In this document: in pieces, positions 2,667-24,168 of the stretch
Layout of the letters: the number at the start of each line of letters is the position of its first letter
How positions within the stretch are numbered: position 1 is the first letter of the stretch
Source of the DNA: Devriesea agamarum
GTDB taxonomy: Bacteria; Actinomycetota; Actinomycetes; Actinomycetales; Dermabacteraceae
NCBI RefSeq assembly: GCF_900070355.1
Contig: NZ_LN849456.1
Coordinates: 1,922,001-1,986,000, forward strand
Direction of reading: 5' to 3'
Length of the DNA: 64,000 bases
Made by a program: the position numbers and the translations under genes
Notes under the pieces: generated by a model
Database searches by the model: none
Told to the model about the DNA's origin: nothing
What the model saw: only the letters and a program-made list of their open reading frames with translations

Positions 2667-3368
2667 ATGAGCCACGGAAACATTCGTACCCGCCAGAAGT
2701 CCTCTGGCTGGTACGAACGTTTTCGCAAACTCATCGCCACACATCTGGCACCCACCCTGAAATTTCTCACCGTCGGCGGACTGGTTTTTTTCGTCGACGC
2801 GGCAATTTACAACGCACTCGTATTCTGGGATCCCTCGGTTGAAGATGGGATACTCGGAAATATCGGGTTAGGTGGTTGGGGTCGAGGAGTTCTATTTAGT
2901 CAGCCTTTAACCGCAAAAATCATTGCGATTAGCTTCGCTTCAATCCTCACCTATATCGGAAACCGGTTATGGACTTTTCGTGATCGCGGTGCGCGCACCA
3001 CGCCCCGATCACTCGCCGCCTTCGTCCTGGTCAATATCATCGCCACCCTCCTCCAGTTAGCCTGCCTCGGCTTCTCACGCTACGTCCTGGGCTTTGACAG
3101 CCAGCTGGCCGACAATATTTCCGGCACCATCATCGGCCAGTTGATTAGCACCTCGTTCCGCTACATCACCTACGGACGCTACGTCTTCACCCCCGGCGCC
3201 ATCTTACCCGGAGAGCGCCACGCACACGCGCATCAGCATGAGTCAGAGCCTCCGGTTTCCGTCGGCACAAGTCACCATCTTCCCTTCGCAAACCCCGACC
3301 AGATGGGACACCATGAGTACGTACACCAGACCCGTGCTGGAATCGAACCAGATCGTCCTGCACGGTAA
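2667..3368 (+). CDS. GtrA-family membrane protein
   Basis: This is a 233-aa protein with four predicted membrane segments, the usual GtrA plan. Segment 1 is LKFLTVGGLVFFVDAAIYNALV, segment 2 is AKIIAISFASILTYIGNRLWTF with the conserved YxxNRxWTFR, segment 3 is AAFVLVNIIATLLQLACLG, and segment 4 ends in SFRYITYGRYVF. GtrA proteins are proposed to flip lipid-linked sugars for cell-surface glycosylation. The start at 2667 (MSHGNIRTR) is preferred over a much longer frame from 2496 whose N-terminus is not conserved-looking. The C-terminal tail is His-rich and overlaps the next gene by 56 bases, an unusually large overlap; the tail may not be conserved. Confidence 0.8.
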   Translation: MSHGNIRTRQKSSGWYERFRKLIATHLAPTLKFLTVGGLVFFVDAAIYNALVFWDPSVEDGILGNIGLGGWGRGVLFSQPLTAKIIAISFASILTYIGNRLWTFRDRGARTTPRSLAAFVLVNIIATLLQLACLGFSRYVLGFDSQLADNISGTIIGQLISTSFRYITYGRYVFTPGAILPGERHAHAHQHESEPPVSVGTSHHLPFANPDQMGHHEYVHQTRAGIEPDRPAR

Positions 3369-3756
3369 GGCCCAGGACCTCACCTCTGCCATTACCGAGG
3401 CGGGCAACCTCCTGGTCGCTGCCGGGGCAGTTGAACCGCCCTATGTGCGCTCCATGATCGAACGGGAAAAAACCATCTCCACATTTATCGGCGGCGGCCT
3501 CGCCATCCCCCACGGCACCCTCGAATCCCAGGAACACATTAAGCGCACCGCCATGTCGTTCGTACGGTATGTCAATCCCATCGACTGGAACGGCGACGCG
3601 GTATCGTTTGTCATCGGAATCGCTGGCCAGGGCGATGAGCACGTATCGCTCCTGCAACGAATCGCCGTTGCCGTTGATGACCCGGCCCAGGTCGCACGAC
3701 TTCAGCGAGCATCCACAACACAGGAGATCCTGAACGTTCTGGAAAGGAATGCATAA
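3313..3756 (+). CDS. PTS mannitol/fructose-type EIIA component
   Basis: This is a 147-aa phosphocarrier of the PTS EIIA-mannitol class (MtlF/CmtB). The phospho-accepting His is H67 in GGGLAIPHGT; the downstream VIGIAGQGDEH and LLQRIAVAVDD segments also match the family, and the length is exactly typical. In the PTS it passes phosphate from HPr to an EIIB domain. No EIIBC gene is nearby. It overlaps the end of the GtrA gene and is followed 172 bp later by HPr, so the two soluble PTS parts may be co-regulated. The start MSTYTRP at 3313 is preferred to an in-frame ATG at 3238 because it matches the family N-terminus. Confidence 0.88.
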   Translation: MSTYTRPVLESNQIVLHGKAQDLTSAITEAGNLLVAAGAVEPPYVRSMIEREKTISTFIGGGLAIPHGTLESQEHIKRTAMSFVRYVNPIDWNGDAVSFVIGIAGQGDEHVSLLQRIAVAVDDPAQVARLQRASTTQEILNVLERNA

Positions 3757-3928: not shown

Positions 3929-4201
3929 ATGGCAGAACGCACCGTCACTATCGCCAGTGCCTCCGGACTGCATGCCCGCCCCGCCGCCATTTTCTCCAAA
4001 GCCGCTGCCGGGCAGCCGGTTGCGGTCACCATCGAAAAGGCCGGGGGCAAACCCGTGCGCGCATCCAGCATCCTTATGCTGATGACACTGGGCGCCGGAC
4101 ACGGCGAAGAGGTCACGCTGCGCGCCGAAGGCGAAGGAGCAGAAGAAGCGGTCTCCGCTTTAGCAGCCCTGCTGGAGAAAGATCTCGACGCCGAAAGCTG
4201 A
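3929..4201 (+). CDS. ptsH: HPr, phosphocarrier protein of the PTS
   Basis: This is a 90-aa protein that carries phosphate from enzyme I to EIIA components. The active-site His is H15 in SGLHARPAA. The conserved regulatory Ser is at about residue 46 in VRASSILMLMTLGAGHG, so HPr-kinase-type regulation is structurally possible, although many actinobacteria lack that kinase. The start at 3929 (MAERTVTIAS) is preceded by GGGAG; an in-frame extension back to 3782 has no HPr homology. No enzyme I gene is in the window. A perfect hairpin 26 bases downstream probably ends the transcript. Confidence 0.95.
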   Translation: MAERTVTIASASGLHARPAAIFSKAAAGQPVAVTIEKAGGKPVRASSILMLMTLGAGHGEEVTLRAEGEGAEEAVSALAALLEKDLDAES

Positions 4202-4227: not shown

Positions 4228-4266
4228 ACTAATGCACCCTGACCGTTTCGGTGAGGGTGCATTAGT
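4228..4266 (+). terminator. Strong hairpin downstream of ptsH
   Basis: A perfect 13-bp stem (ACTAATGCACCCT with AGGGTGCATTAGT) encloses a 13-base loop that can itself fold. No T-run follows, as is common for actinobacterial terminators. It separates the PTS genes from the arginine cluster. Confidence 0.8.
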
Positions 4267-4455: not shown

Positions 4456-5481
4456 ATGGCTATTACGTCTACGTCGCATTTTCAAGGGCGCAGCCTGCTT
4501 TCCACTCGCGATTTCACACGCGATGAGCTCAGCTGGCTCATCGGGTTCTCGATGCATCTGAAGGAACTCAAACAACATCGCATTCCGCACCCCTATCTGA
4601 CCGGGCGCAATATCGCCCTCCTGTTTGAAAAGACCTCCACCAGGACCCGAGCAGCATTTACCGTTGCCGCCCAGGATCTCGGCGCCCACGCCGAATTCCT
4701 CGGCAAGGCTGACATTCAACTCGGCAAAAAAGAGTCGGTGCGAGATACCGCCCTGGTACTCGGTTCCATGTTCGACGGATTGGAGTTCCGAGGCTTCCAG
4801 CACGCTCACGTTGAAGAGCTCGCCAAATACGCGGGGGTCCCCGTCTGGAACGGGCTCACCGACCAAGAACATCCCACCCAGATGATCGCCGACTTCATGA
4901 CCATCGTGGAAGAGTTCGGTGAGCTGTCGGGCCGCACCCTCGCCTATTTCGGGCAGGGCCGCAACAACGTTCAAAATTCCCTGATGCTCACGAGCGCCAT
5001 CCTCGGCATGGATTACGTGAATGCAACCCCTCCGGAGCTAGCCCCCGATCCAGAGATCCTGTCACTGGCTCAGGAGTTCGCTAAAGACTCCGGGGCGAGC
5101 ATTACCGTCACCCACGATCCGCTGGAAGCCGCGCGCAAAGCTGATGTGGTGTACACCAACGTGTGGGCGGCGATGGGCGAGGAGGACCAGTTCGCTGAAC
5201 GAGTTCGCCTGATGCGCCCCTACCAAGTCAACGCGGAACTCGTGAGCCACATCGAAAACCCCGATTACATCGTGATGCACTGCCTCCCGGCATTCCACAA
5301 CGCTGATACCGAGTATGCCCGGGATATTGAGCAGAGATTCGGAATCTCCGCAATGGAGATCACCGACGACGTCTTTTACGGGGACCATGCACGGCACTTC
5401 AAACAGGCCGAAAATCGCATGCATTCCATTAAGGCCATCATGGCCGCCACCCTTGGCAATCTGTACGTTCCCCACGTCTGA
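4456..5481 (+). CDS. Ornithine carbamoyltransferase, catabolic (ArcB) type
   Basis: This enzyme interconverts ornithine plus carbamoyl phosphate and citrulline plus phosphate. The 341-aa protein has the carbamoyl-phosphate motif STRTR (61-65), HPTQMIADF in the middle, and the ornithine-loop Cys in MHCLPAFH (C276). Segments [28 protein letters not shown] and PYQVN resemble catabolic ArcB enzymes more than biosynthetic ArgF. Putrescine carbamoyltransferase is an alternative. The start at 4456 has GAGG eight bases upstream. It heads a plus-strand cluster with an antiporter and a deiminase-like enzyme; no carbamate kinase gene is in the window, so the phosphorolytic direction needs a partner elsewhere. 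Confidence 0.88.
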
Positions 5482-5485
5482 TGTC

Positions 5486-5525
5486 GCGGGGAGGTGCGTG
5501 AGCTGAGCTTCAGCACCTCCCCCGC
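5486..5525 (+). terminator. Hairpin between the carbamoyltransferase and antiporter genes
   Basis: A near-perfect 12-bp GC-rich stem (GCGGGGAGGTGC with GCACCTCCCC.GC) encloses 15 bases. No T-run follows. It could end or partly attenuate transcription, or protect the upstream transcript. Confidence 0.55.
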
Positions 5526-5599
5526 ACGCTCACCCCTTCCCGCCCCTGCCGGCTTAATCATTCCCTGAGAGCCGGTCGGGCTTGCCCAAGGACCACGTT

Positions 5600-7168
5600 A
5601 TGTCTAATGCTTCTGCTGCCGCGTCCGGCGCAGCCTCCGTCCCCCAGCCGCCTGTGCCCCCGGCAAAATCAGCCAAGAAAAAAGAACGCAAGGCTCCCAA
5701 TACCTACGTCATTCTGTTCCTGATCATCGCGTTCATTGCCGTCCTCACCTGGTTCATTCCCGGGGGTGCTTACAAAACCGACGACGCTGGGCGTGCCATT
5801 GCGGGAACCTTCCAGCACGTTAAGGCTGCGCCCCAGGGCCTGTGGGACGTGTTCATGGCGCCAATTACCGGCATGCTCGGGTCGAAGACGATATCGGCCG
5901 CTATTCCCATCTCCCTGTTCGTGATGCTGTTCGGCTCCTTCTTGGAGATGATGGATCGCACCGGCGCTCTGCGGATCGGACTGCGCCGAGTAGCTTTGGC
6001 GAGCCAAGGCCGCTTGCTGCTGTTGATCGCGGTCCTGGTCACGATCATGTCGATCATGGGCACGATTGAAGGGGCGTACGAAGAGGGCGTCGTCTACCTG
6101 CTGATGTTCATGCCGATTCTGCTGGTGATGGGGCTAGACACAGTAACCGCAGCCATGATCGTGGTGGTCGGAACGCAGGTCGGCTGCTTGGCATCGACAA
6201 TCAACCCGTTCGGCGTCGGCATCGCCTCGGGCATCGCCGGGGTCTCTGTCGGCGACGGGATGGGCATGCGCGCCATCATGTTCGTAGTCTTCACCGCTGT
6301 GGCCATCGCCATGATCTACCTATATGCGCGGCGAGTTCAGGCCAACCCCAGCCGTTCGATGCAGCATTTCCGTCGCGACGACGACATCAAAGAGTTCGCG
6401 GCGTCCGGCTCCGACGGTGTCGAACGCATGGTCGGCCGCCAAAAGGCCGCGCTATGTCTATTCATCGCGACGTTCGCCATCATGGTGGTCTCACTCATTC
6501 CGTGGACGTCCCTGAACTCATCGTGGACGTTCTTTGGGGACATCGCCGCATGGATCGCCCAGACCCCTGTTCTTAGGGAAGTTCTCGGTTCGGACATCAC
6601 CCCCATGGGCACCTGGTACTTCGCTGAGCTCTCGATGATGCTCTTGGTGATGACCTTCATCATCGGCAAGGTCATGGGCTATGACGCAAACAAGAACGTG
6701 GACATCATCATTGCGGGTGCCGCAAACCTAGTGCCCACCGCTTTGATCGTGGCGATGGCCCGCGGCATCCAAGTGGTGATGGATGACGGCAAGATCACCC
6801 CCACCATCTTGCACATGGGTGAGGATTCCCTGTCGTCACTGCCGCCGGTGGTCTTCGCGATTGTGGCACTGGTGTTCTACTTCTTGATCGCCTGCCTGAT
6901 CCCCAGCTCCTCCGGACTGGCCGCAGCCACCATGGGAATCATGGCTTCTCTGGCCCGGTTCGCAAACATTCCCGAACCACTCATGGTCACGATTTTCGGT
7001 ATGGCGCTGGGCCTGGCCAAGATGGTGACACCCACCTCGATTGTGCTCATGACCTGTCTGCAAGCCGCCCATATTTCCTATGCTCGATGGCTGCGATTCA
7101 TTTGGCTGTACGTGGTGGCGTTGTTCGCGCTGTGCTGCGTCTTCCTGATCGTGGCGGTCCTGATCTGA
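5600..7168 (+). CDS. YfcC-family arginine/ornithine-antiporter-like membrane transporter
   Basis: This is a 522-aa polytopic protein of the YfcC/C4-dicarboxylate-anaerobic-carrier family. A charged N-terminus (about residues 20-40) is followed by membrane segments starting TYVILFLIIAFIAVLTWFIPGGAY, a family hallmark. Later segments include the conserved MGTIEGAYEE region and CLIPSSSGLAAATMGIMA. Members encoded in arginine deiminase operons act as arginine-ornithine exchangers; others are of unknown specificity. The position between a carbamoyltransferase and a deiminase-like gene supports exchange of a guanidino substrate for its product. The start at 5600 is chosen for AAGGA eight bases upstream. 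The next gene begins 45 bp downstream. Confidence 0.8.
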   Translation: MSNASAAASGAASVPQPPVPPAKSAKKKERKAPNTYVILFLIIAFIAVLTWFIPGGAYKTDDAGRAIAGTFQHVKAAPQGLWDVFMAPITGMLGSKTISAAIPISLFVMLFGSFLEMMDRTGALRIGLRRVALASQGRLLLLIAVLVTIMSIMGTIEGAYEEGVVYLLMFMPILLVMGLDTVTAAMIVVVGTQVGCLASTINPFGVGIASGIAGVSVGDGMGMRAIMFVVFTAVAIAMIYLYARRVQANPSRSMQHFRRDDDIKEFAASGSDGVERMVGRQKAALCLFIATFAIMVVSLIPWTSLNSSWTFFGDIAAWIAQTPVLREVLGSDITPMGTWYFAELSMMLLVMTFIIGKVMGYDANKNVDIIIAGAANLVPTALIVAMARGIQVVMDDGKITPTILHMGEDSLSSLPPVVFAIVALVFYFLIACLIPSSSGLAAATMGIMASLARFANIPEPLMVTIFGMALGLAKMVTPTSIVLMTCLQAAHISYARWLRFIWLYVVALFALCCVFLIVAVLI

Positions 7169-7213
7169 TCCCAATTCATTCACAAGGAACTCAACGAAGA
7201 GGAAGGTTCATCA

Positions 7214-8071
7214 ATGTCAGAGGATAAGGTTTACGTTTCCAACGCCACCAATGTTCTGCGCAAAGTCATGATGTGCTCGCCCGAGCACTATCGCTTCAAT
7301 GCGATCAACGTGATCACCGCAGAATGGATGCGTAAGGGAGACACCGAGAAAAATGATGTGATGGTGCGCGAGTGGGAAACCCTCGTGCAGGCATACCAGG
7401 ACAATGGCGTCGAGGTTGTTCGGGTACCCGCCGACCCGATGTGTCAGGTGATGACCTTCTCCCGGGACTACGGGTGCATGGTCAAGGAAGGCGCGATTAT
7501 CGGCCATTTCCGTCATCCGGCCCGTCAGGTCGAGACAGAGCGCTATGAATCGGTGCTGAAGCAGATGGGCGTTCCGATCATTGCCCGCGTCAACGCCGGG
7601 TGCATGGAGGGCGGAGATTTCTGGATGCTTGATGAGCACACCCTGGTCTTCGGCCTCGTAGACCGCACCGATAAAGCCGGTGTCGCAAACCTCCGCGAAC
7701 AGCTGTGGAAATACGGGTACACGGTACTGGGCATCGAAGTACCGCCGGATAACCTGCACCTGGACATGTGCTTCAACATTGTCGCGGAGAAGGTGTGCCT
7801 GGCAGTGGTGGATCAGCTTCCCTACCAATTCCTGGCCGCAATTAAACGGCGCGGATTCGAGATTATTCCGGTCGCCGCTGAGGATGTGTTTAAGCACGGA
7901 TGCAATGTGCAGGCCATCGGCGATGGCAAGGTCATTGCCATCGAAAAGAATAAGCACATCAATGACCGGATGCGGGCGCTGGGACTCGACATTATCGAGG
8001 TTCCCTTCGACCAGATTCTTCACGCCGGTGGTGGCCCCCACTGCCTCACCCAACCCATTGAACGACCCTGA
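7214..8071 (+). CDS. Short deiminase/DDAH-like enzyme of the amidinotransferase superfamily
   Basis: This 285-aa enzyme belongs to the guanidino-group modifying superfamily (arginine deiminase, DDAH, arginine dihydrolase). The expected catalytic set is visible: Asp85 in FSRDYGC, Glu132 and Asp135 in CMEGGDFW, His182 in LHLDMCF, and nucleophile Cys277 in GGGPHC. It is much shorter than classical arginine deiminase (about 400 aa) and lacks its helical insert. The N-terminal MMCSPEHY...EWM pattern resembles the DDAH/ArgZ group. The neighbourhood suggests arginine or a methylated/oxidised arginine is converted to citrulline or a related ureido compound. Exact substrate cannot be read from sequence. 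The ribosome site GAGGAAGG is well placed. Confidence 0.78.
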   Translation: MSEDKVYVSNATNVLRKVMMCSPEHYRFNAINVITAEWMRKGDTEKNDVMVREWETLVQAYQDNGVEVVRVPADPMCQVMTFSRDYGCMVKEGAIIGHFRHPARQVETERYESVLKQMGVPIIARVNAGCMEGGDFWMLDEHTLVFGLVDRTDKAGVANLREQLWKYGYTVLGIEVPPDNLHLDMCFNIVAEKVCLAVVDQLPYQFLAAIKRRGFEIIPVAAEDVFKHGCNVQAIGDGKVIAIEKNKHINDRMRALGLDIIEVPFDQILHAGGGPHCLTQPIERP

Positions 8072-8082
8072 GCGAGGCAGTG

Positions 8083-9069
8083 ATGCGGATTCTTATTAGC
8101 GACCAGCCCGATTCGATGATGCCGGATCACGAATTAGAGATCCGGACTTTGACCGACGGTCTCGGCCCGGACACCGACATCGAGGTGTACCCCTATGATC
8201 CGGAGCATCCGGAAGGCTTCCTGGAACGACTCAGCACAGCCGATGCCCTGCTGACCGCCTTTATCCCGCTGGACGCCAACACCTTGCGTGCCGCGAAACA
8301 GTTGAAGTTCATCTCGCTAAACTCCACGGGTTTTGACTTGGTCGATCTGGATGCTGCCCAGGAGCTCGGGATTGGGGTGTGCGCGGTCGGCGAGTACTGC
8401 ACCGCCGATGTGTCTGAAGGGGCGATTGCGTTCATTTTCGCCCTCAACAAGCACGTCAAGTCCTATGGGCGAGCCATCGATATCGACCATGCTTGGGACT
8501 ATGCTGCGGCCCCGGCCTGGCCGCGGACCCAGGAGCAGGTACTGGGCATTGTCGGGTTCGGCAAAATTGGTCAGTGCACCGCCCGCAAGATGTCGAATCT
8601 GGTGAAGGGGGTCGTGGCCTGCGACCCGTACCTTCCCCCTGACATCGCCAAGGATCTTGGGGTCGAACTCGTCCGCAAAGAAGAGCTGCTGGAACGCTCT
8701 GACATCATTGTCAATCACATGGCGCAGACGGACAGCAACCGGAACTACTTCGACGCCGACGCGTTTAGCCGTATGCGCCGCCACCCGATCCTGATCAACA
8801 TGGCGCGCGGCACGGCTATTGACGAGTCCGCCCTGGTGGATGCACTCGATACCGGAGTGGTGCGGGGCTATGCCGCCGATGTCCTCGCCGATGAGCACCC
8901 AGATCTGGCACACCATCCGCTGGTCGGCCGCAATGATGTGCTCTTGACCCCGCATTCCTCGTTCTACTCGGCGTCGTCCCTGGAGGACTTGGAACGCATC
9001 AGCGCGCAGAATATCGTCGACTATCTATGCGGCCACAAGGACAAAGTCTTCCGCATGGTCACTCCGTAG
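8083..9069 (+). CDS. D-isomer-specific 2-hydroxyacid dehydrogenase
   Basis: This 328-aa NAD(P)-dependent oxidoreductase reduces 2-oxoacids to D-2-hydroxyacids or does the reverse. The nucleotide-binding motif is IVGFGKIGQ; the catalytic triad regions are NMARGTAIDESAL (Arg), VLADEHPD (acidic residue) and LTPHSSFYS (His). The start ATG at 8083 follows GAGG by five bases and lies 11 bases after the previous stop, so it is co-transcribed with the deiminase-like gene. A dehydrogenase of this type is not part of the standard arginine deiminase pathway. It might act on 2-oxo-5-guanidinovalerate or simply reoxidise NADH; that is inference. Confidence 0.85.
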   Translation: MRILISDQPDSMMPDHELEIRTLTDGLGPDTDIEVYPYDPEHPEGFLERLSTADALLTAFIPLDANTLRAAKQLKFISLNSTGFDLVDLDAAQELGIGVCAVGEYCTADVSEGAIAFIFALNKHVKSYGRAIDIDHAWDYAAAPAWPRTQEQVLGIVGFGKIGQCTARKMSNLVKGVVACDPYLPPDIAKDLGVELVRKEELLERSDIIVNHMAQTDSNRNYFDADAFSRMRRHPILINMARGTAIDESALVDALDTGVVRGYAADVLADEHPDLAHHPLVGRNDVLLTPHSSFYSASSLEDLERISAQNIVDYLCGHKDKVFRMVTP

Positions 9070-9090
9070 GTAGCCGGGAGAGACTGGAGG

Positions 9091-9120
9091 CAGCCGGGTG
9101 GCTCCGTAGCTACCCGGCTG
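9091..9120. terminator. Hairpin downstream of the dehydrogenase gene
   Basis: A 9-bp perfect stem (CAGCCGGGT with ACCCGGCTG) continues inward with further pairs and a tetraloop. It lies between convergent genes. Confidence 0.7.
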
Positions 9121-9140
9121 GCTCCGGACGTACCGCGACG

Positions 9141-9188: not shown

Positions 9189-10202
9189 CTATTGCATGAG
9201 CAGCCGGCCATAGGCAGTGAGGTCGGTGTTGCCGCCACTGAGCACAGCACCGACCTTCTGCCCGGCGCACCATTCAGGATGTTCTAGGAGAGCCGCGATA
9301 CCCAGCGCCCCGGTCGGTTCGACGATCAGTTTCGTCGTATCAGCAATGAGCCGCATCGCCCGGATGATGTTCTCTTCAGACACGGTTAACACCGCATCCA
9401 GGGCACGCACCCCGGCCGCCGCGCCGCGCAAAATGTCAAAAGTCAGTGGCGCGAGCGCCTGGGTCATCACCCCGTCAGCCAAGGTGCGCGGCACCTCGAT
9501 TTTTACGATCCTGCCTTCGGCCAGAGACCGCCGGGCATCATCAGCCACCTCCGGTTCCACGCCGACGACTGCGCATCCCGGATCTGCCTCCCGGGCCACG
9601 ATCAAACTTCCCGATAACAGCCCTCCTCCGCCGAGTGGGGTCAGCAGCGTATTCAGACGTTCCCCGAGGTCATGGACTTGCTCGAAGAATTCTAGGGCGG
9701 CAGTTCCCTGCCCTGCGACGATATCTGGGTGGTCAAATGGCGGCACCACCGTCGCACCGGTACGTTCGGCCAGGGCAGCACCGATCTCCTCCCGGCTTTG
9801 CCTGCCGCGCTCATACAACACCACCTCAGCGCCGTACCCAGCTGTAGCCTCCCGCTTCACGCGAGGCGCATCCGACGGCATCACCACGGTGACCCGAATG
9901 CCGAGCTCCCGACCGGCGAGCGCAATCGCCTGGGCATGGTTTCCCGACGAATAGGCAACCACACCGCGGGCCCGCTGCGCCTGATCCATACGCATCAGTG
10001 CGTTCATAGCCCCGCGCGCTTTAAAAGCCCCAACCCGTTGCAGGTTCTCGCATTTGAGAAACACGGTGGCACCCAGGATCTGGCTCAGCCGCCGCGATGT
10101 GACAACGGGGGTGCGGTGCACATGCGGAGCGATCCGCTCAGCAGCCGCGTACACATCGTGAACCGTGGGCAGGGTTGATTCCTGGTATGAAGCATCGGTC
10201 AT
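9189..10202 (-). CDS. PLP-dependent threonine/serine dehydratase
   Basis: This 337-aa fold-type II PLP enzyme deaminates L-threonine or L-serine to 2-oxoacids. The Schiff-base Lys is K61 in FKARGA; the substrate-binding loop SSGNHAQA and the phosphate-binding loop GGGGLLSG are both present. It ends without an ACT domain, so it resembles catabolic TdcB or threo-3-hydroxyaspartate dehydratase rather than feedback-regulated biosynthetic IlvA (about 420-510 aa). No clear Shine-Dalgarno sequence precedes the ATG at 10202. It is convergent with the arginine cluster. Confidence 0.87.
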   Translation of the reverse strand: MTDASYQESTLPTVHDVYAAAERIAPHVHRTPVVTSRRLSQILGATVFLKCENLQRVGAFKARGAMNALMRMDQAQRARGVVAYSSGNHAQAIALAGRELGIRVTVVMPSDAPRVKREATAGYGAEVVLYERGRQSREEIGAALAERTGATVVPPFDHPDIVAGQGTAALEFFEQVHDLGERLNTLLTPLGGGGLLSGSLIVAREADPGCAVVGVEPEVADDARRSLAEGRIVKIEVPRTLADGVMTQALAPLTFDILRGAAAGVRALDAVLTVSEENIIRAMRLIADTTKLIVEPTGALGIAALLEHPEWCAGQKVGAVLSGGNTDLTAYGRLLMQ

Positions 10203-21621: not shown

Positions 21622-22824
21622 TCAGACCCCCAGCTTCGTAATCACGAGATTATCAATCTTAAAGCCAGATGCAGTCGCATAGTGCCGGACCTGAAGACCA
21701 TCGGACTCGCCCTGGGCCTTTAAATCGATATCCGACTTCCCCTGGGAAACCTCACCCGACGGCGCCGTCACAGATACGACACCATCGTAATAAGACAGTT
21801 TCCAGCGCCCAATTTGTGCATCAGGACCAGTCCAAGGGATTCGTACTGAGGACTTGTGTACTACCACCGTGTCTTTTTGGAAGGTGAGGTTAATGCCTCC
21901 GTCACCGACCGTTGATCTCGCGCGGATCGCAATACTTGCGAGCGGAGTGTTCTTAGCTGTCGACGTTGTCGTACCGACAGACACCACATCAAAGGCAACC
22001 TCGAGATTCTGCGCAGCCACACGCCCGAAAATCCATACGTTACCCGTACCAGGCTTGAGAGGGGTGAGCACCCCGCCCTGGGGCCGGTATCCTTCGTGCG
22101 CGTTTCGGTCACCATGTTCACCTGAAAAGATGAACTTGCCGGTTCCACCGAGGGCATTGTTCAAGGTAAAGGGAATAGTTGCCGAGTCCGTCGCGAAATC
22201 CCCTGATGCGATAATCTCGCGTGCGTTCGGATCGGGGAAGGGATGGGTCCACGAGTAGGTGGACACCATCTTGTAGCCGGGTAGAGCGATGGCGTCAATC
22301 GTTACCTTCGACGGAACCTTTGACACGATCTTCGTGACTTCACCTCCCGGGATGTCGATGCCGTCTCGCACTCGGTATTTCACACCGACGAGGGAGGGCA
22401 CGAGAACAGTTCCCTTAATGTCGTCCCACACCGGTTCACTAGGAATCACCGGAACTAGTTTTTCAAGAGGCTTCTGCCAGACAATCGGAACAGTGGTGCC
22501 ATCTGCCGTTTTATACAGCCCTTCTTTCGGTTCGGTTGCGGAGACAACCGTCCAGAACCCTTGAGCCTTTGCCTGGGCATCCGCTGACCAGGAACCACTT
22601 TGCGGAGCCGGTTTCCAGCTCGCCGCACCAGAGGCGTCACGGGTGAGAACCGTACCTGCGTCACCACCCTTCGGAAGAGTTTCTAGTGCCGCGATCTCCT
22701 TTTTCGTTGCGTAGGTAGCGAGATCTGGGATGCGAGCATCAATAAGCCCTTTGACCTGCGCAAGTGCTTCATTCGAGAGAGGTCCCTCAGAAGCGGTAGC
22801 GTTAGCGTTGGGAGTAGTATTCAT
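21622..22824 (-). CDS. Phage fibre-like protein
   Basis: This 400-aa protein starts MNTTPNANA. A helical N-terminal region (about 15-60) is followed by a segment ETLPKGGDAGTVLTRDASGAASW, which resembles the shaft linker of fibre proteins (a GTVLT/GxxLtk motif). The C-terminal 200 residues are beta-rich and look like a carbohydrate-binding jelly roll (GKFIFSGEHGDRN, WKLSYYDGVVSVTAPSG). The start at 22824 is used because the frame upstream to 22902 is AT-rich and hydrophobic by chance. It probably forms a receptor-binding fibre. Confidence 0.62.
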   Translation of the reverse strand: MNTTPNANATASEGPLSNEALAQVKGLIDARIPDLATYATKKEIAALETLPKGGDAGTVLTRDASGAASWKPAPQSGSWSADAQAKAQGFWTVVSATEPKEGLYKTADGTTVPIVWQKPLEKLVPVIPSEPVWDDIKGTVLVPSLVGVKYRVRDGIDIPGGEVTKIVSKVPSKVTIDAIALPGYKMVSTYSWTHPFPDPNAREIIASGDFATDSATIPFTLNNALGGTGKFIFSGEHGDRNAHEGYRPQGGVLTPLKPGTGNVWIFGRVAAQNLEVAFDVVSVGTTTSTAKNTPLASIAIRARSTVGDGGINLTFQKDTVVVHKSSVRIPWTGPDAQIGRWKLSYYDGVVSVTAPSGEVSQGKSDIDLKAQGESDGLQVRHYATASGFKIDNLVITKLGV

Positions 22825-23319
22825 AATAGTTTTCCGTTCTAAATATGTGTTAATAATTAGATTAATAAATATAGTTAGGTGCAATATAATTAAGACGTGC
22901 ATGCCGACTGGGGATTATTCTCATTGAATATAGATAATCGACAGCACATCGACGAGATACGGATTCCCATGTGGCATCCATTTTTATCTCGTGCCCCTGC
23001 CGTGCAGCGCTGGTTATATCCGGGGTTTAAAGCTCACCCTTTTATGCGGACAGGATCAGTCATCACGCAGGGGATCTGTTGTTAACCGGCAGTGCCGGTG
23101 CGCACCATGAGCATGGGTGCGCTCGCTCCACATCTTTCGTTGGGCGTGGTCACGGACTTGTATTCATCCCCCCTAGAGCCTGGGTCTGCCCGCATTTCAG
23201 CGGGCGTCAGCGGTCTTTCACTCATCGGTGCCGCTGGGGTTTCTCTATTTTGTTGTCAAACTTTTTGATCGCGGGGACGCACTTAAAAGTGGCCCAATAT
23301 TCGACGCATAATGCGCCCG
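22825..23319. other. Gene-free interval inside the prophage
   Basis: This 495-bp stretch lies between the first fibre gene and the small HTH gene. The part next to the fibre gene is AT-rich. Three hairpins are visible: 23085-23099 (ACCGGC/GCCGGT), 23100-23122 (GCGCACC/GGTGCGC) and 23188-23205 (GCCCGC/GCGGGC). No convincing reading frame was found. Because it sits where early and structural phage genes would be, it is the likely scar of a large deletion. Confidence 0.45.
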
Positions 23320-23562
23320 TTAGGCGGCGTTACATTCCTTTCGGGGTACACAAAACGCCTGCCATGGCCATGCAGTTACTCGCATTGCTTCGCCAACGAA
23401 GCGGTCGGCTGATGAGCCCGTCACCTCTGCCGCTCGCGCTCGTTGAATCTCGGCACAATTGAGGCCTAGGCGAGCAGCAAGCGCGGCATCGCTGGGTTCA
23501 CAGAGGTACTCACGCAGCTTCGAGACGATGCCGGGCCGAAGCCCGTAGCTTTCGGTTGACAT
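23320..23562 (-). CDS. Small phage HTH regulator (Cro-like)
   Basis: This is an 80-aa basic protein. Residues about 22-50 (EPSDAALAARLGLNCAEIQRARA) match a helix-turn-helix, and the C-terminal MRVTAWPWQAFCV resembles the end of small actinophage DNA-binding proteins. A strong ribosome site (GAGGAGG, seven bases before the ATG) is present. It is divergent from the ImmR-like repressor with a 147-bp shared control region, as Cro-type proteins usually are. Confidence 0.65.
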   Translation of the reverse strand: MSTESYGLRPGIVSKLREYLCEPSDAALAARLGLNCAEIQRARAAEVTGSSADRFVGEAMRVTAWPWQAFCVPRKECNAA

Positions 23563-23576
23563 ATCACCTCCTCAGT

Positions 23577-23700
23577 GTGAGTCACTTTTGCGTCGTCTGT
23601 TGATATAAGTAGACGCCTGCTCGGCGCGTGACGCAAGTCGTAGCCGATATGACGCGTATCACACACCTATAAGCTGGATGTTGTCTACAAAATGACTCAC
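23577..23700. promoter_or_regulatory. Divergent phage control region with inverted operator-like repeats
   Basis: The motif GTGAGTCA-C-TTTTG at 23577-23590 is repeated in inverted form as CAAAATGACTCAC at 23688-23700, one copy near each divergent gene start. Inside are a second inverted pair TGCGTC/GACGCA and a CGTCT/AGACG pair. This is the layout of a repressor-Cro switch. The right copy covers the upstream in-frame ATG at 23692, which favours 23710 as the repressor start. Confidence 0.5.
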
Positions 23701-23709
23701 GATGGTGGT

Positions 23710-24168
23710 ATGACTGAGACCTTGAAGCAGTGGATGACCCGCGTCACCCAGGGCGCTTCGCTGCGCGCAATCGCCTCCGCCGCAGGTATCAAGCAGGCGA
23801 CCCTCGCCCGTCAAGCGGCAGAGAACCGGATTTCGCCCGAATCGGTCGTCGCCATCGCTCACACCTACAACGCCAACGTCCTGGAAGGTCTGATCGCACA
23901 GCGCCTGCTCAGACCCGATGACATCACTCAGGTGCGGGAAGTCATCGGACTGCGCGAAGCGTCGGACCGCGAGCTTGCCGACGAGATCCTCCGGCGTCTG
24001 AACGAACGCGGCACCGACACACTCAACTCTGATGAGAAGACCCGCGCGCCCCGTATGTCAGTCCCTCGACTTACGCTTCTTTCAGACGATGCGCCTAAAG
24101 AATGGGAGGACATGCCGTATGCCGCCGATACCGAGCATCCCGGAGACGATCCCGGCGAAGACGACTGA
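23710..24168 (+). CDS. ImmR-like phage repressor
   Basis: This 152-aa protein has an N-terminal helix-turn-helix of the XRE type (TLKQWMTRVTQGASLRAIASAAGIKQATLARQ spans the recognition region, about residues 5-36) and an acidic C-terminal half ending HPGDDPGEDD. It overlaps the following metallopeptidase gene. The pair matches ImmR-ImmA modules, in which the protease cleaves the repressor to induce the element. An ATG at 23692 is also in frame, but lies inside an operator-like repeat. Confidence 0.75.
   Translation: MTETLKQWMTRVTQGASLRAIASAAGIKQATLARQAAENRISPESVVAIAHTYNANVLEGLIAQRLLRPDDITQVREVIGLREASDRELADEILRRLNERGTDTLNSDEKTRAPRMSVPRLTLLSDDAPKEWEDMPYAADTEHPGDDPGEDD

Follow-up and report, generated by a model that had tools for sequence, protein, structure and literature searches.

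A cluster of four genes in a 64,000-nucleotide stretch of the Devriesea agamarum genome (contig NZ_LN849456.1; the whole stretch is called the window below) may encode an ATP-yielding deiminase pathway, working by substrate-level phosphorylation, for argininate (2-hydroxy-5-guanidinovalerate) and/or 2-oxoarginine. We put the probability of this reading at roughly 0.5. The cluster comprises four open reading frames (ORFs) on one strand, separated as listed by 100, 45 and 8 bases, and the initial annotation of this DNA, made from its letters alone, had correctly grouped them:

4456..5481, + strand: ornithine carbamoyltransferase (OTC)-like carbamoyltransferase, "type 1", 341 aa (Pfam/NCBIfam OTCase)
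5582..7168, + strand: YfcC/DcuC-family exchanger, likely starting at the in-frame ATG 5600 (Pfam/NCBIfam DcuC/YfcC)
7214..8071, + strand: short deiminase of the guanidino-modifying superfamily, 285 aa (Pfam/NCBIfam arginine deiminase (ADI)/DDAH superfamily)
8080..9069, + strand: D-2-hydroxyacid dehydrogenase, 329 aa, with an ATG at 8083 (Pfam/NCBIfam 2-Hacid_dh)

Both the deiminase and the carbamoyltransferase keep the residues that read the carboxylate and the guanidino or ureido group and lose a residue assigned to the amino end, so the alpha-amino end is apparently not read. The substrate therefore quite probably lacks a free alpha-amino group, and the odds that it is specifically a 2-hydroxy or 2-oxo acid are about even.

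The carbamoyltransferase resembles catabolic OTC overall, with 389.3 bits for TIGR00658 (cut-off 280.85) and the catabolic OTC of L. hilgardii (2w37, 53% identical) as its nearest solved chain. E. coli OTC binds ornithine via Asn167, Asp231, Ser235 and Met236, and via Lys53 through water (PMC4581275). In the window enzyme the ornithine motif DxxxSMG reads NxxxAMG (NVWAAMG), with N235 (codon 5158-5160) at the place of Asp231 and A239 (codon 5170-5172) at that of Ser235, and the carboxylate lysine is kept as K59 (4630-4632). The label "catabolic-type OTC" given in the initial annotation thus holds for overall similarity and fails at the ornithine motif. The lysine neutralises the carboxylate, and putrescine carbamoyltransferase has Gln in its place (PMC3282769); the loop of the latter enzyme, DVWYGLY, retains the Asp. 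Putrescine differs from ornithine in lacking the carboxylate, which would assign the retained Asp to the amino end. In two other transcarbamylases the Asp of an HDLP motif has been proposed for the alpha-amino group (PMC4581275); the cluster enzymes shown keep HCLP and are consequently without that Asp. The putrescine carbamoyltransferase model TIGR04384 gave 245.6 bits against a cut-off of 500, the window enzyme having K59 and no DVWYGLY loop, and the N-acetylornithine-type model PRK04523 gave 126.8 bits against 288.

Among 75 distinct aligned carbamoyltransferases, the combination of a kept Lys and a lost Asp231 was found in 25 of 25 cluster enzymes and in none of 50 others. The sequences came from 70 matches at E up to 1e-60, of which 30 were taken as loci first and the other non-cluster ones were added later; identical rows and rows under 280 aa were dropped before the first alignment. 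The cluster enzymes comprise 19 of type 1 (N..AM) and six of type 2 (N/M/V..SMG). The 50 non-cluster rows, drawn from 21 genomes and including the host aspartate carbamoyltransferase, divide into 24 with both residues, 19 with Asp and no Lys and seven with neither, the aligned column being unsure in six very divergent rows (L159, L164, L166-L169). Fifteen of the 19 are putrescine-type enzymes with DVWYGLY, the mirror of the cluster pattern, and 22 of the 24 have DxxxSMG, the other two reading DVWVG(M/L)G. Fisher values of 6.7e-14 (22 vs 25 rows) and 4.0e-27 overstate independence, many of the loci being close kin. In a tree of 49 rows, which leaves aside the 26 added later, types 1 and 2 form separate, fully supported groups, and type 1 sits beside two Enterococcus phoeniculicola OTCs with DxxxSMG; parsimony on this tree suggests that Asp231 was lost twice, both times in company with the cluster deiminase. 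A DNA pattern for YTNVWAAM gave 17 matches in 396 Coriobacteriia genomes, every one of them no further than 2.4 kb from the deiminase, and the other three deiminase genomes of this class have the variant YANVWAAM (G663) or type-2 enzymes (G464 and G665).

The deiminase exceeded the gathering cut-offs of PF02274 (ADI, 102.6 bits against 22.8) and PF19420 (DDAH_eukar, 103.3 bits against 23), and it keeps the Asp, Glu, His and Cys set that had been noticed at the outset: D85, E132, H182, D184 and C277 align with the catalytic residues of 22 ADIs. It fell short of the arcA model TIGR01078 (84.1 bits, cut-off 489.1), the ArgZ model NF052232 (62.8 bits, cut-off 450) and the DDAH models NF045659, NF045660 and NF045658 (86.8, 68 and 40.4 bits, cut-offs 300, 340 and 450). 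The 22 ADIs, picked by a motif filter that ADIs without the motif would escape, have 405-472 aa, and the domain inserted in ADI is helical. The structural model of the window protein (pLDDT 86.9) adopts the guanidino-modifying-enzyme fold, and a fold search returned Z scores of 29.8 for ADI, 27.6 for ArgZ, 27.5 for DDAH and 27.4 for amidinotransferase, so that the fold does not separate these. A tree, the check proposed in the initial annotation, placed the cluster deiminases apart from the 22 ADIs, two ArgZ-type enzymes and a DDAH and in no clade with a known substrate. Support for the group was 92/65 with the distant cluster L105 and 100/98 without it; branches are long and deeper joins unsure.

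In ADI the amino and carboxylate groups of the substrate contact Leu44, Asn155, Arg180, Arg232 and Gly392 (M. arginini numbering), two Args binding the carboxylate and two carbonyls the amino group (PMC3474736). The carboxylate arginines persist in the cluster deiminases: R151 is present in all 24 rows and R104 in 23, L105 having His there. The position six before the guanidinium Asp is Asn in 22/22 ADIs and Asp in the host DDAH and the two ArgZ-type enzymes; it is V79 (codon 7448-7450) in the window protein and Val, Leu or Tyr in 24/24 cluster rows. The guanidinium Asp itself is kept (D85), unlike in both ArgZ-type rows, which have Asn there, and the product should therefore be a ureido acid, as the carbamoyltransferase needs. 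Two assignments were discarded: arginine dihydrolase, since the guanidinium position holds Asp and not Asn, and DDAH-like use of methylarginine, one of the substrates first suggested, since the DDAH scores lie far below cut-off and the host has a separate DDAH-like gene (L024:5985-6764).

The dehydrogenase passed PF00389 (68.2 bits) and PF02826 (144.4 bits), and its Arg243, Glu272 and His292, which we take to be the catalytic residues, are invariant in 18 rows; a search for a specific solved relative found none. The exchanger scored 319.6 bits for PF03606 and 215.6 bits for the YfcC model PRK11588, below the model cut-off of 500. It was the dehydrogenase that had hinted at a 2-oxo or 2-hydroxy analogue of arginine in the initial annotation, and the residue changes in both other enzymes agree with that hint. 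The neighbourhood of L105 holds a deiminase, a LarA-family racemase homologue, an Ldh_2 protein, a class III aminotransferase, an AFOR, a carbamate kinase, a more distant D-2-hydroxyacid dehydrogenase and a piece of another. The best curated model for the LarA homologue is malate racemase, at 277.9 bits below its cut-off of 500, and LarA-family enzymes act on 2-hydroxy acids (PMC11770544). Taken together, the dehydrogenase and the 2-hydroxyacid genes of L105 suggest a 2-hydroxy or 2-oxo acid substrate.

In the pathway that we propose, the YfcC-family carrier would swap the guanidino acid for the end product, and the deiminase, whose active-site set is observed, would hydrolyse the guanidino group to give a ureido acid and ammonia. 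The OTC-like enzyme, to judge by its family, would then split the ureido acid by phosphorolysis, releasing carbamoyl phosphate and 5-amino-2-hydroxyvalerate, and a carbamate kinase, here presumably arcC, would yield ATP and ammonia. The D-2-hydroxyacid dehydrogenase would interconvert the 2-oxo and D-2-hydroxy forms, thereby admitting 2-oxoarginine and/or balancing NADH. At L105, 5-amino-2-hydroxyvalerate formed from argininate might be led on to 2-hydroxyglutarate by the aminotransferase and AFOR.

Conservation of the cluster was assessed by scanning 84,980 species, one genome each, for the deiminase; the scan, which detects close relatives only, found 18 loci at 56-78% identity. Twenty-four related clusters were compared (L005-L022, L056, L057, L059, L061, L104 and L105), many of them closely related and some from the same species or genus. 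The order carbamoyltransferase, YfcC, deiminase, dehydrogenase, whose conservation the initial annotation had wanted checked, is the same in 18 of them (L005-L020, L059 and L061), mostly Coriobacteriia, and extends to an Actinomycetaceae genome and a Lachnospiraceae metagenome-assembled genome (MAG). L021 has this order with a carbamate kinase inserted, L056 has all four genes in a different order, and all four kinds of gene are present in 20 of the 24. This conservation is more than chance, and the four genes are real and probably a conserved operon. A carbamate kinase adjoins ten clusters (L006, L012, L015, L017, L018, L021, L022, L061, L104 and L105; in L012 and L015 the gene is truncated where the contig ends), and a PucR-type regulator, assigned by similarity, lies near 21 (Pfam-checked in L021, L022, L057 and L061, the N-terminal match of the last being under cut-off). 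Neither adjoins the window cluster. A comparison of 14 loci for gene families present in at least three of them gave the four enzymes, PucR, reverse-frame artefacts and a symporter-like gene. The sodium:solute-symporter-like gene recurs near L006, L011-L014, L017-L019 and L057 (8/14 loci compared), with Pfam SSF confirmed in L057 only.

The deiminase is rare among sampled genomes, again one per species. It was found in one of 47 genomes of the host's family, namely the host itself, and in its phylum strongly in 5/396, the host included, with four more weak matches. Corresponding counts were 20/396 in the class Coriobacteriia, 2/43 in the genus Collinsella and 5/348 in the phylum of E. phoeniculicola (carrier of L021), where three matches were weak, one of them with stops in its reading frame. 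Base composition of the window cluster is like that of its surroundings. The distribution suggests a patchy system that probably moves horizontally. In the stretches examined around the remoter deiminase relatives L106-L111 (E about 1e-38 to 1e-62), nothing matched the carbamoyltransferase, the kinase or YfcC, and L106 (G819:C42), with one internal TGA and one TAA, is probably a decayed copy.

Ordinary arginine catabolism is provided for elsewhere in the host. In its 2.96-Mb genome (one contig, 99.99% complete), arcA, arcB and arcC lie adjacent at C1:2390381-2393567, with 402 bits for arcA (PF02274) and 355.3 bits for arcC, slightly below the cut-off of 358.25. The reported absence of arcA and carbamate kinase accordingly stands for the window and not for the genome. 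The initial annotation had counted an arcA-arcC set elsewhere against its own proposal; the set exists, and it argues for a second substrate and not against the cluster. At E up to 1e-60, TIGR00658 matched just two genes of the host genome, arcB and the one in the window, and a separate argF was not found among them.

We hand-picked 18 carrier genomes among the known carriers (14 of the 18 scan genomes, by locus, plus G464, G665, G663 and G503), and 16 of them have a full-length ADI besides the cluster, the exceptions being Berryella (G806) and a MAG (G810), for which absence is weak evidence. Arginine is thus already served in these carriers, which speaks against arginine as the likely substrate, as first proposed. 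The idea that the cluster replaces arcA was rejected on the same grounds, together with the host's arcABC. Carbamate kinase (E up to 1e-50) was found in 17 of the 18, the exception, G807, having a kinase gene beside its cluster (L012) that is cut by the contig end; in G802 the sole carbamate kinase found sits directly after the cluster. All in all, the observation made in the initial annotation was partly confirmed, and its interpretation partly supported.

Other deiminase genes were seen as well. OTCs with the loop DVWVG(M/L)G stand beside divergent ADIs (343-344 bits) at L143 and L144 (G812:C21 and G809:C15), and a further ADI-like gene (210-233 bits) lies a few kb from them; this is possibly another variant pathway. 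At L088 (G665:C1, about 21681-24000) a divergent ADI homologue with the motif CNFIMCRD adjoins a carbamoyltransferase without the carboxylate Lys (loop DAWWYHG), a pair that perhaps breaks down a further guanidino compound by deimination.

The loss of the amino-end residues would be explained equally well by a substrate without the whole alpha substituent. 4-Guanidinobutyrate or 5-guanidinovalerate would be converted via the ureido acid to 4-aminobutyrate (GABA) or 5-aminovalerate and carbamoyl phosphate; the class III aminotransferase of L105, which an AFOR follows, resembles GABA/acetylornithine aminotransferases, and in one trial the pattern seen for 4-guanidinobutanoate resembled the one for 2-oxoarginine (PMC11340759). 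Such a substrate nevertheless leaves the D-2-hydroxyacid dehydrogenase (in 20/24 clusters, with a distant one in L105) and the LarA homologue unexplained, and 4-guanidinobutyrate has a chain one carbon shorter than that of arginine, yet both carboxylate Args are kept. We consider it unlikely. Equally improbable in our judgement is a second, shortened arginine deiminase pathway, with L-arginine as substrate of the deiminase and citrulline as that of the OTC-like enzyme, in which the loop changes would be neutral or a kinetic tuning. It would suit the TIGR00658 score of the OTC-like protein, its 53% identity to a solved catabolic OTC and the lack of another ADI in Berryella, but Asp231 is missing in all 25 cluster enzymes of two clades, the ADI Asn in all 24 deiminase rows, and most carriers and the host have the full-length enzyme. 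A third alternative is an arginine whose amino group is blocked, either N-alpha-acetylarginine or a C-terminal arginine, which deimination and phosphorolysis would turn into N-acylornithine; such a substrate would likewise make Asp231 and the ADI Asn less necessary. No deacylase occurs among the families recurring in at least three of the 14 compared loci, however, the 2-hydroxyacid dehydrogenase is left unexplained and the carbamoyltransferase does not belong with the N-acetylornithine enzymes, making this explanation very unlikely.

Several observations weigh against the argininate/2-oxoarginine pathway. That the ADI Asn serves the amino end of the substrate is our own reading, an uncertain assignment; similarly, the account of Asp231 in PMC4581275 says only that it binds ornithine, the group contacted being our reading, and the same source credits Q164 with the hydrogen bond to the amino group of putrescine and has the Asp help shape the site. 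In the carbamoyltransferase model the expected substrate loop (residues 236-258) has pLDDT under 50, so the binding claim rests on alignment. The residue change in the deiminase does not by itself define the system, for L109 (29% identical) has Tyr at this position and no such cluster on its 8.9-kb contig, and the more distant L107 has Glu. The dehydrogenase is absent from the examined stretches of L022, L057 and L104, which have more distant deiminases (the stretches of L022 and L104 end shortly past the deiminase). The L105 deiminase is divergent (34% identical, His at Arg104, weakly placed at 92/65), and its neighbourhood may describe another substrate. The PucR-type regulators and "Gate" proteins near the clusters are unexplained by the proposed pathway. 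Berryella, assembled in one contig, lacks an ADI although it has the cluster and, as a pair, an OTC and a carbamate kinase, so the short deiminase could serve arginine there. In pig gut loops argininic acid rose under antibiotics and was still high after microbes had returned, unlike what simple microbial removal would give (PMC12562777). The Berryella OTC and carbamate kinase lie together at L176 (G806:C1:432000-448000), where a neighbouring gene looks YfcC-like by eye.

The four window genes are likely a transcription unit of their own. Three hairpins accompany them:

4228..4266: strong hairpin in the gap from the HPr gene to the cluster (-29.5 kcal/mol, z -8.33), without a T tail, possibly the end of the upstream unit
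5483..5527: hairpin between the carbamoyltransferase and exchanger genes (-29.4 kcal/mol, z -3.45), which may weaken read-through
9084..9127: strong hairpin 3' of the dehydrogenase gene (-39.8 kcal/mol, z -5.95), without a T tail, possibly the end of the cluster's transcription unit

The unit is called only likely because the hairpins are without T tails and were not flagged by a terminator scan, which found three terminators in all against 3.6 expected; a sigma-70 scan found none against 2.2 expected. Directly upstream are a stand-alone fructose/mannitol-type EIIA (3238-3756, +) and then HPr (3932-4201, +), and a convergent threo-3-hydroxyaspartate ammonia-lyase-like PLP enzyme follows at 9189-10202 (-; 439.9 bits, curated cut-off 452).

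In the literature searched we found no pathway for argininate breakdown or with a 2-oxoarginine deiminase, and the expected intermediates gave no paper. The only named route found for 2-oxoarginine leads to 4-guanidinobutyrate (PMC11340759), and a systems study of E. lenta treats the arginine and agmatine pathways (PMC10234575). Argininate and 2-oxoarginine are listed as uremic retention solutes, and the enzymes listed under argininic acid in the same source act on arginine (PMC8745165). In a faecal transplant trial, engraftment of Collinsella aerofaciens went with lower plasma 2-oxoarginine (p = 0.048), an association called purely statistical, as did that of F. saccharivorans (p = 0.001; PMC11340759). 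A genome labelled C. aerofaciens (L009) carries the cluster, in a genus where only the two sampled genomes noted above do so. This lead and that from the pig gut are correlations. If the proposed pathway is right, some gut bacteria would gain ATP from compounds that accumulate in kidney failure and remove uremic guanidino solutes, which could explain why plasma 2-oxoarginine was lower where C. aerofaciens engrafted. Microbial use of these two acids thereby gains candidate genes and a chemistry that can be tested. The one pair of enzymes also illustrates how the substrate choice of deiminase pathways may be read from the binding residues, according to the end of the substrate that they still contact.

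Among known systems, the ArgZ/AgrE arginine dihydrolase has a similar size and N-terminal layout and the same fold (Z 27.6), but it carries Asn in the guanidinium position and, six residues earlier, Asp, where the window deiminase has Asp and Val respectively. DDAH shares fold and size and gave the deiminase its best NCBIfam score (86.8 bits), which does not reach the cut-off of 300, and the host DDAH has Asp in place of Val six before the guanidinium Asp. The arginine transaminase/dehydrogenase route proceeds to 4-guanidinobutyrate, without deimination or carbamoyl phosphate. Like the proposed pathway, that route handles 2-oxoarginine (PMC11340759). The closest likeness is to the arcABC/D pathway, with a deiminase, a carbamoyltransferase and an exchanger in one operon, homologous enzymes and a carbamate kinase in 10/24 relatives; the cluster differs in its 285-aa deiminase (405-472 aa in ADIs), in the change of the ADI Asn to Val and of DxxxSMG to NxxxAMG, in the extra D-2-hydroxyacid dehydrogenase and in coexisting with arcABC. 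It is possibly an undescribed variant of the deiminase-carbamoyltransferase-carbamate kinase kind. The agmatine deiminase pathway follows the same logic, being a variant with its own (putrescine) carbamoyltransferase, but agmatine and putrescine have no carboxylate, its carbamoyltransferase loses the Lys and keeps the Asp (PMC3282769), and agmatine deiminase reportedly differs in structure from ADI (PMC10234575). Beside the arginine and agmatine pathways, the cluster might tentatively, at odds a little short of even, be placed as a third carbamoyl-phosphate-yielding deiminase fermentation, used by some Coriobacteriia of the gut and by other anaerobes. It would combine a deiminase of its own with 2-hydroxyacid enzymes and with two carbamoyltransferases, recruited separately and retuned by the loss of Asp231.

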